Below, in pieces: positions 15,922-48,305 of a stretch of 64,000 bases of DNA (the stretch's first letter is position 1; each line of letters begins with the position of its first letter). Source of the stretch: Haloplanus rubicundus (lineage in GTDB: Archaea; Halobacteriota; Halobacteria; Halobacteriales; Haloferacaceae). The stretch covers positions 62,001-126,000 of the forward strand of contig NZ_CP031148.1 of NCBI RefSeq assembly GCF_003342675.1, in the 5' to 3' direction. A model generated the notes under the pieces. That model worked only from the letters and a program-made list of their open reading frames with translations, was not told where the DNA came from and did not search any database. The position numbers and the translations under genes are program-made.

Positions 15922-16090
15922 GGTCGCCCCCAGAAGGGAGCGGGCATTAAGCCTACGCACGGCGGTGTTTCGATCGGCGGACAGCATCGTCCCCGACGAG
16001 GCCGAGCGAAGTCGAAGCGGATGGAATTCCGGCTACGTGACCCCGGCCGACGACGCCGCCTCCCATCCAGTAGTCGCGACGACGCACTAC

Positions 16091-16277
16091 CGTTCGCGGA
16101 TAGCGGGCACGATGGGAGTCCCGTGAGTGAGCGAAGCGAACGAACGGGACTACATCGTGGCCGCGAACGACCGAAGGGAGTGAGCGGGCACGATGGGATT
16201 TGAACCACGGTCGCGGCAAAGCCGCTCCCTGATTCAAATCCCAGCAGCCGCTACTGCTCACTGACGTTCGCAGATAG
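16091..16277. repeat. Truncated, palindromic copies of the tRNA-Arg(TCT) 3' end
   Basis: Downstream of the tRNA-Arg gene, GCGGGCACGATGGGA (the tRNA acceptor 3' strand and start of the T arm) occurs at 16103-16117 and again at 16184-16198, besides the true copy at 16277-16291. Each extra copy sits in a palindrome. In the first, GCGGGCACGATG (16103-16114) faces CATCGTGGCCGC (16153-16164) and an inner GTCCCGT/ACGGGAC stem. In the second, TGGGATTTGAA (16194-16204) faces TTCAAATCCCA (16233-16243) with inner GCGGC/GCCGC. No reading frame is credible here. Confidence 0.85.
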
Positions 16278-16381
16278 CGGGCACGATGGGATTTGAACCC
16301 ACGACCGTCGGATGACTTCCCACACACGGGGTCGCGTGTGGCTAGAAGTCCGACGCTCTATCCGGACTGAGCTACGTGCCC
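16278..16381 (-). tRNA. tRNA-Arg(TCT) with a 29-base intron
   Basis: The acceptor stem GGGCACG/CGTGCCC, D arm, T arm (GTGGG TTCAAAT CCCAT) and discriminator G are complete on the reverse strand. The anticodon TCT is at 16344-16346. The loop is interrupted after base 37 by an intron at 16314-16342. This is the canonical 37/38 site cut by the archaeal splicing endonuclease. The intron contains CCACACGCGACCCCGTGTGTGG, which can pair on itself. CCA is not encoded. Confidence 0.93.
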
Positions 16382-16495
16382 CCACCGACGGAACGACGGG
16401 CGCATCAAAAAACCGTTCGATAAGACCCGTCGTAAGTCGTTTCCGCTGGTTCGCCGGAACCAGGGGACGAACAGGGACGACGGGCCGTAGAAACC

Positions 16496-24478: not shown

Positions 24479-24588
24479 GGGCTCGGGCGGATTCGAACCA
24501 CGAGGACTTCGCTTCGCTCGTCCTCTGGGCTCGAACCGCCCTCACGTCACGGATTTGTGACTCGCCGTTCGGCTCGTCACAAAATCCG
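24479..24588. repeat. Truncated, palindromic copy of the tRNA-Val 3' end plus a second hairpin
   Basis: GGGCTCGGGCGGATTCGAAC, matching the tRNA-Val acceptor 3' strand and T arm, starts at 24479, 113 bases downstream of the true one. It forms a palindrome: GGGCGG (24485-24490) faces CCGCCC (24536-24541), and GAGGAC (24502-24507) faces GTCCTC (24520-24525). A second hairpin follows: GGATTTGTGAC (24551-24561) faces GTCACAAAATCC (24576-24587). Confidence 0.85.
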
Positions 24589-24590
24589 AG

Positions 24591-24664
24591 TGGGCTCGGG
24601 CGGATTCGAACCACCGACTTCGGCCTTGTAAAGGCCGCGTCATAACCAACTAGACCACGAGCCC
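24591..24664 (-). tRNA. tRNA-Val(TAC)
   Basis: On the reverse strand: acceptor GGGCTCG/CGAGCCC, anticodon stem CGGCC/GGCCG with loop TTTACAA (anticodon TAC), T arm GGTGG TTCGAAT CCGCC, discriminator A. No intron, no encoded CCA. Confidence 0.94.
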
Positions 24665-44672: not shown

Positions 44673-45716
44673 TTAGATATTCTGGATGAATTGCCGCCGT
44701 TGCTCTGCCTTTTCATCCTCTGTACGACGGTCGTAATGTTGGTCTAACACGTCCTGCGAGACGTTCATCCGATCCGAGACGATTTTCTCGGGGACATCTT
44801 GACGAAGGTGGTGTGTGATTGCCCCACGACGGATGGGATGCCCTGACACCGTCGACGGGCACTTACACGCCTCATTCGTCCGCTGTGCCGCCTCACAGTC
44901 GTCGGGGACTTTGCCATGTGGACAGTCCCGACCCGTCGCACAGGGACGTGTCACGGCGTAGATGTTCCGTCGGATCGTGTTCTTTGTCGCCCGCCCCTGA
45001 CTCGTCGTGAACAGTGGCTCCCGTTCGTGGTCGTCGGTGACGTTGTGGCGGTGCTCTCCGATGTAGTCGTCAACGACTTCACTCACCTCTGGTGACAAAG
45101 CGATGAACCGCTTCCCTGCCTCTCCGTTCTTGAGTGGGGTGTCTGTCTCGGGGCGGTGACGGACACGAAGTCGATCACGTTCGCCGTCAAAGTCACTCAC
45201 GTCGAGTCCGTGAGCCGTCCCCGTCCGAATCCCAGTGTGCCATAGGAGAGACATGAGAGCGTGGGTACGACTTCCATAGTGGTACTTCCGCAAGTACGAG
45301 AGGATCGCCGTCGCGTCGTCGGAATCGAGTGTTTCCGTCCGTGCGTTTCTATTACGGTCGGGAAGCACGATGCGCTCGGCGGTGTTCGGGGCAACGGCGT
45401 CGATCCCCTCACAAAACACCACGAACTGACGCACAGTACTCAGGTAGATGCTGAGCGTTGACTGTGCGAGGTTCTCCTTGATCGAAAGTTGGTACTCGTG
45501 GACGGTGCGGGCTGTCACGTCGTTCATGTTCGTTATCTCTTCCTCAGCGCAGAAGTCCACGAACGATCCGACGTGTTTGTCGTGTAGTTCGAGGGACCGC
45601 TCGGCAAGTTCGTCGCTCCGTGATTTCAGGTAGAGACGCTTTGCTTCGCTCGGTTCGAGTGGTTCCAGTCGGTGCGTCTGTGTATTCGCCTGTCGCGTCT
45701 CGTTGGTTCGGCTCAT
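44673..45716 (-). CDS. Tyrosine recombinase (integrase) of the element
   Basis: 347 residues. The N-terminal SAM-like DNA-binding domain covers about 20-110. In the catalytic domain, R164 (HTGIRTG), H293 and R296 (SGHPIRRG) and nucleophile Y328 (QHYDRR) are present. A Cys-rich insert at 259-286 (CATGRDC, DDCEAAQ, CKC) is typical of haloarchaeal integrases. Its start codon is about 35 bases from the broken azf copy, so it lies at the element edge as expected. Confidence 0.93.
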   Translation of the reverse strand: MSRTNETRQANTQTHRLEPLEPSEAKRLYLKSRSDELAERSLELHDKHVGSFVDFCAEEEITNMNDVTARTVHEYQLSIKENLAQSTLSIYLSTVRQFVVFCEGIDAVAPNTAERIVLPDRNRNARTETLDSDDATAILSYLRKYHYGSRTHALMSLLWHTGIRTGTAHGLDVSDFDGERDRLRVRHRPETDTPLKNGEAGKRFIALSPEVSEVVDDYIGEHRHNVTDDHEREPLFTTSQGRATKNTIRRNIYAVTRPCATGRDCPHGKVPDDCEAAQRTNEACKCPSTVSGHPIRRGAITHHLRQDVPEKIVSDRMNVSQDVLDQHYDRRTEDEKAEQRRQFIQNI

Positions 45717-47857: not shown

Positions 47858-48257
47858 GCCGTTCGCTAGTCCGAGATGTTCACTACGTTCACATCTCGCA
47901 CCGCTCGTCGTCGTGGTGTCGGCAGAAACGTCCTGACGGAGTCCCCACGCGAGCGGACGCGAGCGTGGGGGCACGTCAGGTCGCGAACGAAGTGAGCGTC
48001 CTGACGGAGATTTGAACTCACTCACTTCGCTTCGCTCGTTCGCTGCTCAAATCTCCGTGTCTCCGTTTCTGCCGACACGGACGCCTCGCTTGCTCACGGC
48101 TACGCCGTTCGCTATTTCGAGATGCTCACTACGTTCGCATCTCGCACCGCTCGTCGTCGTGGTGTCGGCAGAAACGTCCTGACGGAGTCCCCACGCGAGC
48201 GTGGGGGCACGTCAGGTCGCGAACGAAGTGAGCGTCCTGACGGAGATTTGAACTCCG
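47858..48257. repeat. Tandem ~155-base blocks containing palindromic tRNA-Arg(GCG) 3' ends
   Basis: Block A (47858-48019) and block B (48104-48256) are near-identical apart from a 10-base insertion in A. Each ends with GTCCTGACGGAGATTTGAAC, the reverse of the tRNA 3' end; in B this is the tRNA itself. A shorter copy, GTCCTGACGGAG, occurs mid-block at 47929 and 48176. Hairpins: CCTGAC/GTCAGG with inner CCCCACG/CGTGGGG in both blocks, CGGAGATTTGA (48005-48015) facing TCAAATCTCCG (48047-48057), and CCGTGTC/GACACGG (48055-48080). Confidence 0.87.
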
Positions 48258-48305
48258 GTCCCTGGCTCCGCAAGCCAAGAGGATAGTCCACTACCCTATC
48301 AGGAC
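48233..48305 (-). tRNA. tRNA-Arg(GCG)
   Basis: On the reverse strand: acceptor GTCCTGA/TCAGGAC, anticodon stem TTGGC/GCCAG with loop TTGCGGA (anticodon GCG), T arm CGGAG TTCAAAT CTCCG, discriminator G. No intron, no encoded CCA. Confidence 0.92.

Follow-up and report, generated by a model that had tools for sequence, protein, structure and literature searches.

Why should the 3' end of a tRNA gene occur again, twice, directly behind that gene, each time as one arm of a palindrome? This question is raised by the tRNA-Arg(TCT) locus in the window analysed here, a 64,000-nucleotide stretch of a haloarchaeal chromosome (G000:C2:62001-126000). The tRNA-Arg(TCT) gene was missed by ARAGORN at default settings and was caught by the Rfam covariance model (RF00005), the only Rfam family to score above its gathering cut-off at positions 15950-16450. 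The last 22 nt of the gene (16278-16299) read GGTTCAAATCCCATCGTGCCCG and are preceded by a G, and this end is seen again as AGCGGGCACGATGGGA at 16102-16117 and 16183-16198. The repeats lie at lower coordinates, that is, 3' of the tRNA gene, because the gene is encoded on the minus strand. A preliminary description of this DNA had placed the two copies at 16103-16117 and 16184-16198 and had assigned each of them to an arm of a near-perfect palindrome; the positions are shifted by a base or two, and both palindromes are indeed present. The copy closer to the gene exists as described, but its length had been understated, as it comprises the full 22 nt.

Two units follow on the 3' side of the tRNA gene, unit A (16277-16185) and then unit B (16184-16104), each of which ends in a copy of the tRNA 3' end that forms the 3' arm of a hairpin (Table 1). 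On the tRNA strand, unit A reads CTATCTGCGAACGTCAGTGAGCAGTAG-CGGCTGC-TGGGATTTGAAT-CAGGGAGCGGCTTTGCCGCGACCGTG-GTTCAAATCCCATCGTGCCCG (16277-16185). The stem of its left hairpin, H1, is predicted to include the final two bases of the tRNA gene, and its palindrome (16194-16210/16227-16243) has 17-nt arms that are 88% complementary. Unit B reads CTCACTCCCTTCGGTCGTTCGC-GGCCACGATGTAGTCCC...GGGACTCCCATCGTGCCCG (16184-16104) on the same strand. Its left part, CTCACTCCCTTCGGTCGTTCGC, is a G.A-type hairpin on the opposite strand and is followed by a hairpin, GGCCACGATGTAGTCCC...GGGACTCCCATCGTGCC, at about 16106-16162, with a folding energy of -26 kcal/mol on the tRNA strand versus -31.6 kcal/mol on the other strand. 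The unit ends in a 13-nt tail copy, CCCATCGTGCCCG (16104-16116). In more than one species a ParE/RelE-type toxin gene is found directly past the tRNA-Arg(TCT) unit array (G001:C1 near position 1710000); such toxin loci beyond these arrays are L004, L080:6537-6833 (minus strand) and L009.

Table 1. Positions, within the window, of the tRNA-Arg(TCT) gene, its downstream units and the units behind two further tRNA genes.
Feature	Position	Strand	Basis or locus
tRNA-Arg(TCT), intron-containing, insertion target	16278-16381	minus	Rfam RF00005, 60.3 bits
Unit A, left hairpin H1, CTATCTGC...GCAGTAG	16251-16277	minus	fold; design shared by other units
Unit A, target-matched arm TGGGATTTGAAT	16232-16243	minus	compensatory changes
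Unit A, conserved core CAGGGAG-CGGCTTTGCCG-CGACCGTG	16206-16231	minus	core recurrence
Unit A, tRNA-tail duplicate GGTTCAAATCCCATCGTGCCCG, second arm of the A hairpin	16185-16206	minus	
Unit B, left part CTCACTCCCTTCGGTCGTTCGC, hairpin and tail copy	16104-16184	minus	
Variant unit behind tRNA-Val(TAC) (24591-24664), hairpin and tail copy AATCCGCCCGAGCCC	24479-24590	minus	L044
Array behind tRNA-Arg(GCG) (48233-48305)	47929-48232	minus	L071

A search at the other tRNA genes of the same genome, as the preliminary description had suggested, revealed a genome-wide pattern: 18 of the 45 tRNA genes have their 16-nt tail repeated within 450 bp downstream (two mismatches or fewer). Pairings with the tails of other tRNAs, used as a control, gave 3 matches in 1914, corresponding to 0.07 expected per 45 genes, and no copy of the own tail was found in the 300 bp upstream of any of the 45 genes. 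The tail copies behind these genes are not due to chance. They are in direct orientation and usually start 80-130 nt downstream of the tRNA gene. Strict T-arm palindromes occur seven times in this genome, and for each of them a tRNA gene ends no more than about 150 bp upstream. The preliminary description had proposed to judge the link with tRNA genes by asking whether such palindromes are equally common at non-tRNA genes, and the association survived this comparison. The general motif GAGCGAAGCGA was rejected as a tRNA marker, since it is enriched near tRNA genes yet not specific (13 of 34 copies are located within 500 bp downstream of one).

Within the window, the array behind tRNA-Arg(GCG) consists, in this order, of a B-type unit, a T-arm hairpin unit with another core and a second B-type unit, with tail copies 50, 228 and 296 nt downstream of the gene. 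A gene for an SNJ2-group tyrosine integrase (window 44685-45668, minus strand) is located near this tRNA gene and its array, and the region at 44.7-48.2 kb is probably an integrated element. At another place on the chromosome (L078, G000:C2:3316300-3316700), four tandem 79-bp B units with a tRNA-Ala tail adjoin an integrase gene, 13 kb away from the tRNA-Ala gene itself (3329530). The genome also contains a dispersed palindromic repeat of about 90 bp, GTAAGTCAGTACCGGTGGTTCGCC...GGTGAACCACCGGTAAACAG (for instance at about G000:C2 2543250-2543360, in the flank of L068), which is found at around 50 sites in each genome of the genus and is unrelated to the tRNA units.

The core of unit A, searched for with the pattern CAGGGAG-N6-36-CGACCGTGGTTC, is present in 271 of 391 Halobacteria genomes (about 70%) and in 74 of 86 genera, and the reversed pattern, used as a control, matched none of the 391 genomes. 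About ten bacterial matches were discarded as chance hits, with no tRNA and no palindrome. In named haloarchaeal genomes, nearly all A copies share the strand of a tRNA gene, carry the tail of that tRNA and lie downstream of the gene, mostly at a distance of 45-80 nt. Among 166 distinct units, 131 have a matching tail copy inside the tRNA gene, covering about 15 isotypes (a few Arg genes with an intron were given another isotype, such as Pyl, by ARAGORN). Most of the others match a unit that lies upstream of them and belongs to their own or to a different family. The inner core of A is of a small number of types that recur, such as GAGC-TTT-GCTC, GTGGAGCGAAGCGGAAC and GGTCGCGCGCAGCGAAGCGAGCACGTCC, and a single type occurs behind different isotypes in different genera. 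The B core, TAGTCCC...GGGACTCC, resembles that of A in its behaviour and is seen mainly within the genus, behind Arg(TCT), Arg(CCT), Arg(CCG), Ala and Gly tRNAs. An autonomous longer version was not found among the 166 units. No description of the units was found in Rfam or in the published open-access papers searched. Further unit families with the same design and different cores were noted at L197, L060, L046, L062, L069, L155, L159 and L222; examples of their cores, ahead of GGTTC and the tail, are ...GAACGTCTTGCTCC, ...CACGTCTGGTTCC and ...CTCGCAATCGGG.

What, then, do these units have in common? They are about 60-100 bp long and consist of a left and a right hairpin, located between the intact tRNA gene and the tail copy, and they lack the usual terminal inverted repeats (TIRs) of transposons. 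The tail copy of A units runs from the GGTTC in the T-loop through the discriminator base and is about 20-22 bp long, and that of B units has about 12-13 bp. The right hairpin closes on the target, because an arm of the unit complements the local T-arm (A) or, in B units with their 13-nt tail, the acceptor end. In A units, the arm upstream of the core pairs with the unit's own tail from T54 to about C63, and pairing is at background level in the acceptor part; where the tail is perfect, each of the first nine positions is paired in 84-99% of the units. The arms also fit the isotype-specific bases, as pairing at position 57 is 0.92 with the own tail versus 0.54 with other tails. In 35 short-core A hairpins, 94.3% of the cells are paired and 46 cells are doubly changed, and none of 500 shuffled controls reached the observed pairing. 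In 49 of 86 cases, the left hairpin takes in the final two bases of the tRNA gene.

Alignment of tRNA loci across relatives, which the preliminary description had called for, showed empty and filled sites among congeners. Behind tRNA-Arg(TCG), G000 has one unit, whereas G006, G009 and G011 are empty, with the flank following directly after the tRNA gene, and therefore the unit is an exact insert of about 95 bp plus a duplication of about 20-22 bp. In G002 and G008 this gene is followed by units whose hairpins are different. Behind tRNA-Leu(CAA), a unit is present in G000, G002 and G007 and is missing from G003, G009 and G011. This empty-site evidence was obtained for A units and points to gain only indirectly, because a site may also become empty when the two tails recombine and the unit is lost. 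As far as the sequences can tell, repeated gain is favoured over loss by the three empty congeners and by the two others with units of a different kind; we infer that the units move actively.

The units are not confined to tRNA genes. In Natronorubrum texcoconense (NZ_FNFE01000003.1, plus strand, about 930-1275; locus L123), three tandem A units are found with no tRNA gene, and ARAGORN detected none in the 8 kb examined. The units follow a gene for a small OB-fold protein ending in CGGTTCGAACCGGTCTGATCCC, an end that imitates a T-arm. The 21 nt starting at GGTTC are repeated directly behind the first unit, and each of the other two is followed by an imperfect copy. The orthologues of the OB-fold gene in Natrinema and Natronococcus have the same T-arm-like end, CCGGTTYGAACC, and no unit. 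The distance of about 20 nt from the T-arm-like motif to the insertion point is kept although the sequence is not a tRNA. The units at this site and the empty orthologues therefore suggest that the recognised feature looks like T-arm DNA. A second species with this insertion was not found in 392 genomes, and the non-tRNA case rests on one locus.

Taken together, we consider it likely that the units are non-autonomous double-hairpin mobile elements, which target T-arm-like DNA with a strong preference for the 3' ends of tRNA genes. A palindromic mobile unit at tRNA ends had been among the roles envisaged in the preliminary description, and the empty and filled sites, the occurrence of one core behind many isotypes and the site in N. 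texcoconense all speak for it. The units might also have spread with no dedicated enzyme, if T-arms exchanged sequence through template switching or gene conversion when the DNA is replicated and repaired, with the stable hairpins helping. Such a process would agree with a right junction in sequence common to most tRNAs (GGTTCRAATC), with tandem copies that expand freely and with the presence of one core type behind several isotypes. However, the left junction is located at the discriminator base, where the sites have no sequence in common, the breakpoint is exact, and the arms fit isotype-specific bases of the T-stem. In addition, the non-tRNA target was struck at the same distance of about 20 nt, and we regard this route as unlikely.

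The hairpins could instead be a functional RNA selected for in the tRNA trailer, that is, a processing signal, a stability element or a decoy for RNase Z or the CCA enzyme, in which the tail copy mimics the tRNA end. Their compensatory changes are in line with this idea, and so is the preference of the A fold for the transcribed tRNA strand, on which it is the better fold in 137 of 138 cases. The B hairpins that were tried fold better on the strand opposite to the tRNA, that is, as antisense, and the opposite preferences of A and B are caused by G.A-rich loops. Furthermore, a B-like hairpin is kept behind tRNA-Leu(CAA) in all 12 species of the genus, which looks like retention; some copies, such as this one, could have gained a function and may be kept for it. 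Against a trailer RNA, most tRNA genes have no unit, sister species differ in unit presence at the same gene, and the acceptor part of the A tail is identical to the tRNA although it is unpaired. Units also occur behind a protein gene where there is no tRNA, some sites are empty, and B prefers to fold as antisense; for these reasons an RNA decoy or processing signal is rejected as the main explanation and seems very unlikely to us; the decoy role put forward in the preliminary description is not needed.

Alternatively, the units might be decayed scars of larger plasmids or viruses with SNJ2-type tyrosine integrases, for which the tRNA tail served as att site. Integration of such elements at the same tRNA ends does occur, the attP of Halfgib1 ends in a tRNA tail (CTGCAGCGCCCA), and the B tail is likewise about 12-13 nt long. 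In G001, a 5.7-kb plasmid is located between tRNA-Arg and an A-B array and is flanked by a 13-bp tail core; it codes for a Rep protein and for an integrase of the SNJ2 family, which shares 62% identity with the integrase of virus SNJ2. However, this plasmid integrated beside the array, whose A-B order was kept and not created by it, and the larger integrase elements at unit arrays displace the arrays and do not contain the A core. Scars would be expected to vary from tRNA to tRNA, and recombination between attL and attR cannot copy the end of a protein gene as seen in N. texcoconense. For A, decayed integrase scars are rejected because one core and hairpin design is constant over 74 genera and no true A unit was found among 2.9 million viral contigs, which makes this origin highly improbable. 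Scars of repeated insertion and inversion, also suggested in the preliminary description, are not supported, as no inverted units were found, the units and their direct tail copies have a single orientation, and the inverted arm belongs to the unit itself.

How could non-autonomous mobile elements of this kind be inserted? We propose that an enzyme supplied in trans would recognise the folded ends of the unit and T-arm-like DNA (GGTTCRAAYC) and would join the unit to staggered cuts in the target, the repair of which would create the tail duplication. Tandem units would arise afterwards by recombination between tails. The matching arm might be either a guide that selects the target or a copy taken from the target at insertion. 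One might speculate further, although we hold this to be rather doubtful, that the units form a class-wide gene-less family with nucleic-acid-guided insertion specific for tRNA genes, in which the arm of the element would pair with T-arm DNA on a folded single strand, a ruler of about 20 nt would set the cut at the end of the gene, and a haloarchaeal enzyme would move the units. Two candidate movers were compared with the units by co-occurrence in 12 unit-rich and 12 unit-free genomes, and neither cleanly separates the two groups or follows the copy number of the units: SNJ2-type integrases are encoded in all 24, and Y1 transposases in 11 of the unit-rich and 6 of the unit-free genomes, the unit-rich G053 being one of those without. 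A cores are almost absent from one genus (g42, family f12) and numerous in related genera, a natural contrast for an enzyme hunt.

With the units, the elements known to land at tRNA genes would gain a class that has no genes of its own, and the units would explain repeated tRNA ends that are otherwise read as integration scars or tRNA fragments. They also provide a test case for target recognition through base pairing; with a non-tRNA insertion site and clear empty sites at hand, target choice is therefore directly testable. Casposons, SNJ2-type elements and IS200/IS605 derivatives each have features that define them and that the units do not show. Casposons encode Cas1 and PolB, have terminal inverted repeats and produce a duplication of 14-15 bp, which includes just the last 4-7 bases of the tRNA (PMC6977970, PMC4046053), whereas the units are 60-100 bp long, with no gene and no TIR, and the duplication of A spans 20-22 bp that lie entirely inside the tRNA. 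SNJ2-type elements have an integrase gene, and their attP, with a 13-bp core, contains the tRNA end (PMC8371274). They share with the units the hosts and the target, the tRNA 3' end, and their att core is matched in length by the tails of B, but not by those of A. Unlike them, the units have no room for an integrase, and they carry the end of whatever gene precedes them; integrase genes at unit-bearing tRNAs occur in larger elements only. Base pairing between element and target is a feature of IS200/IS605 transposition and is seen with the units as well. As in REP/BIME sequences and in the palindrome-associated elements of the IS200/IS605 group (PATEs), the units contain palindromes, fold as single strands in a strand-asymmetric manner and have no usual TIR. 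However, PATEs are inserted without target duplication (PMC3119063), whereas the units show a clear duplication at empty and filled sites, and their copy number has no clear link to Y1 transposase counts.

In the way they appear to function, the nearest counterparts of the units would be mobile hairpin elements. The traits of mobile double-hairpin elements as a kind, namely two hairpins, presence/absence polymorphism and dispersed copies, are all found in the units. Fungal mitochondrial DNA contains double-hairpin elements (DHEs). Repetitive hairpin-forming elements (RHEs) have been described in sponge mitochondria (PMC2800124). Similar to RHEs and DHEs, the units are very small and gene-less, have two hairpins, and are scattered and apparently mobile; unlike them, they target tRNA tails, duplicate 13-22 bp and close a hairpin on the target.
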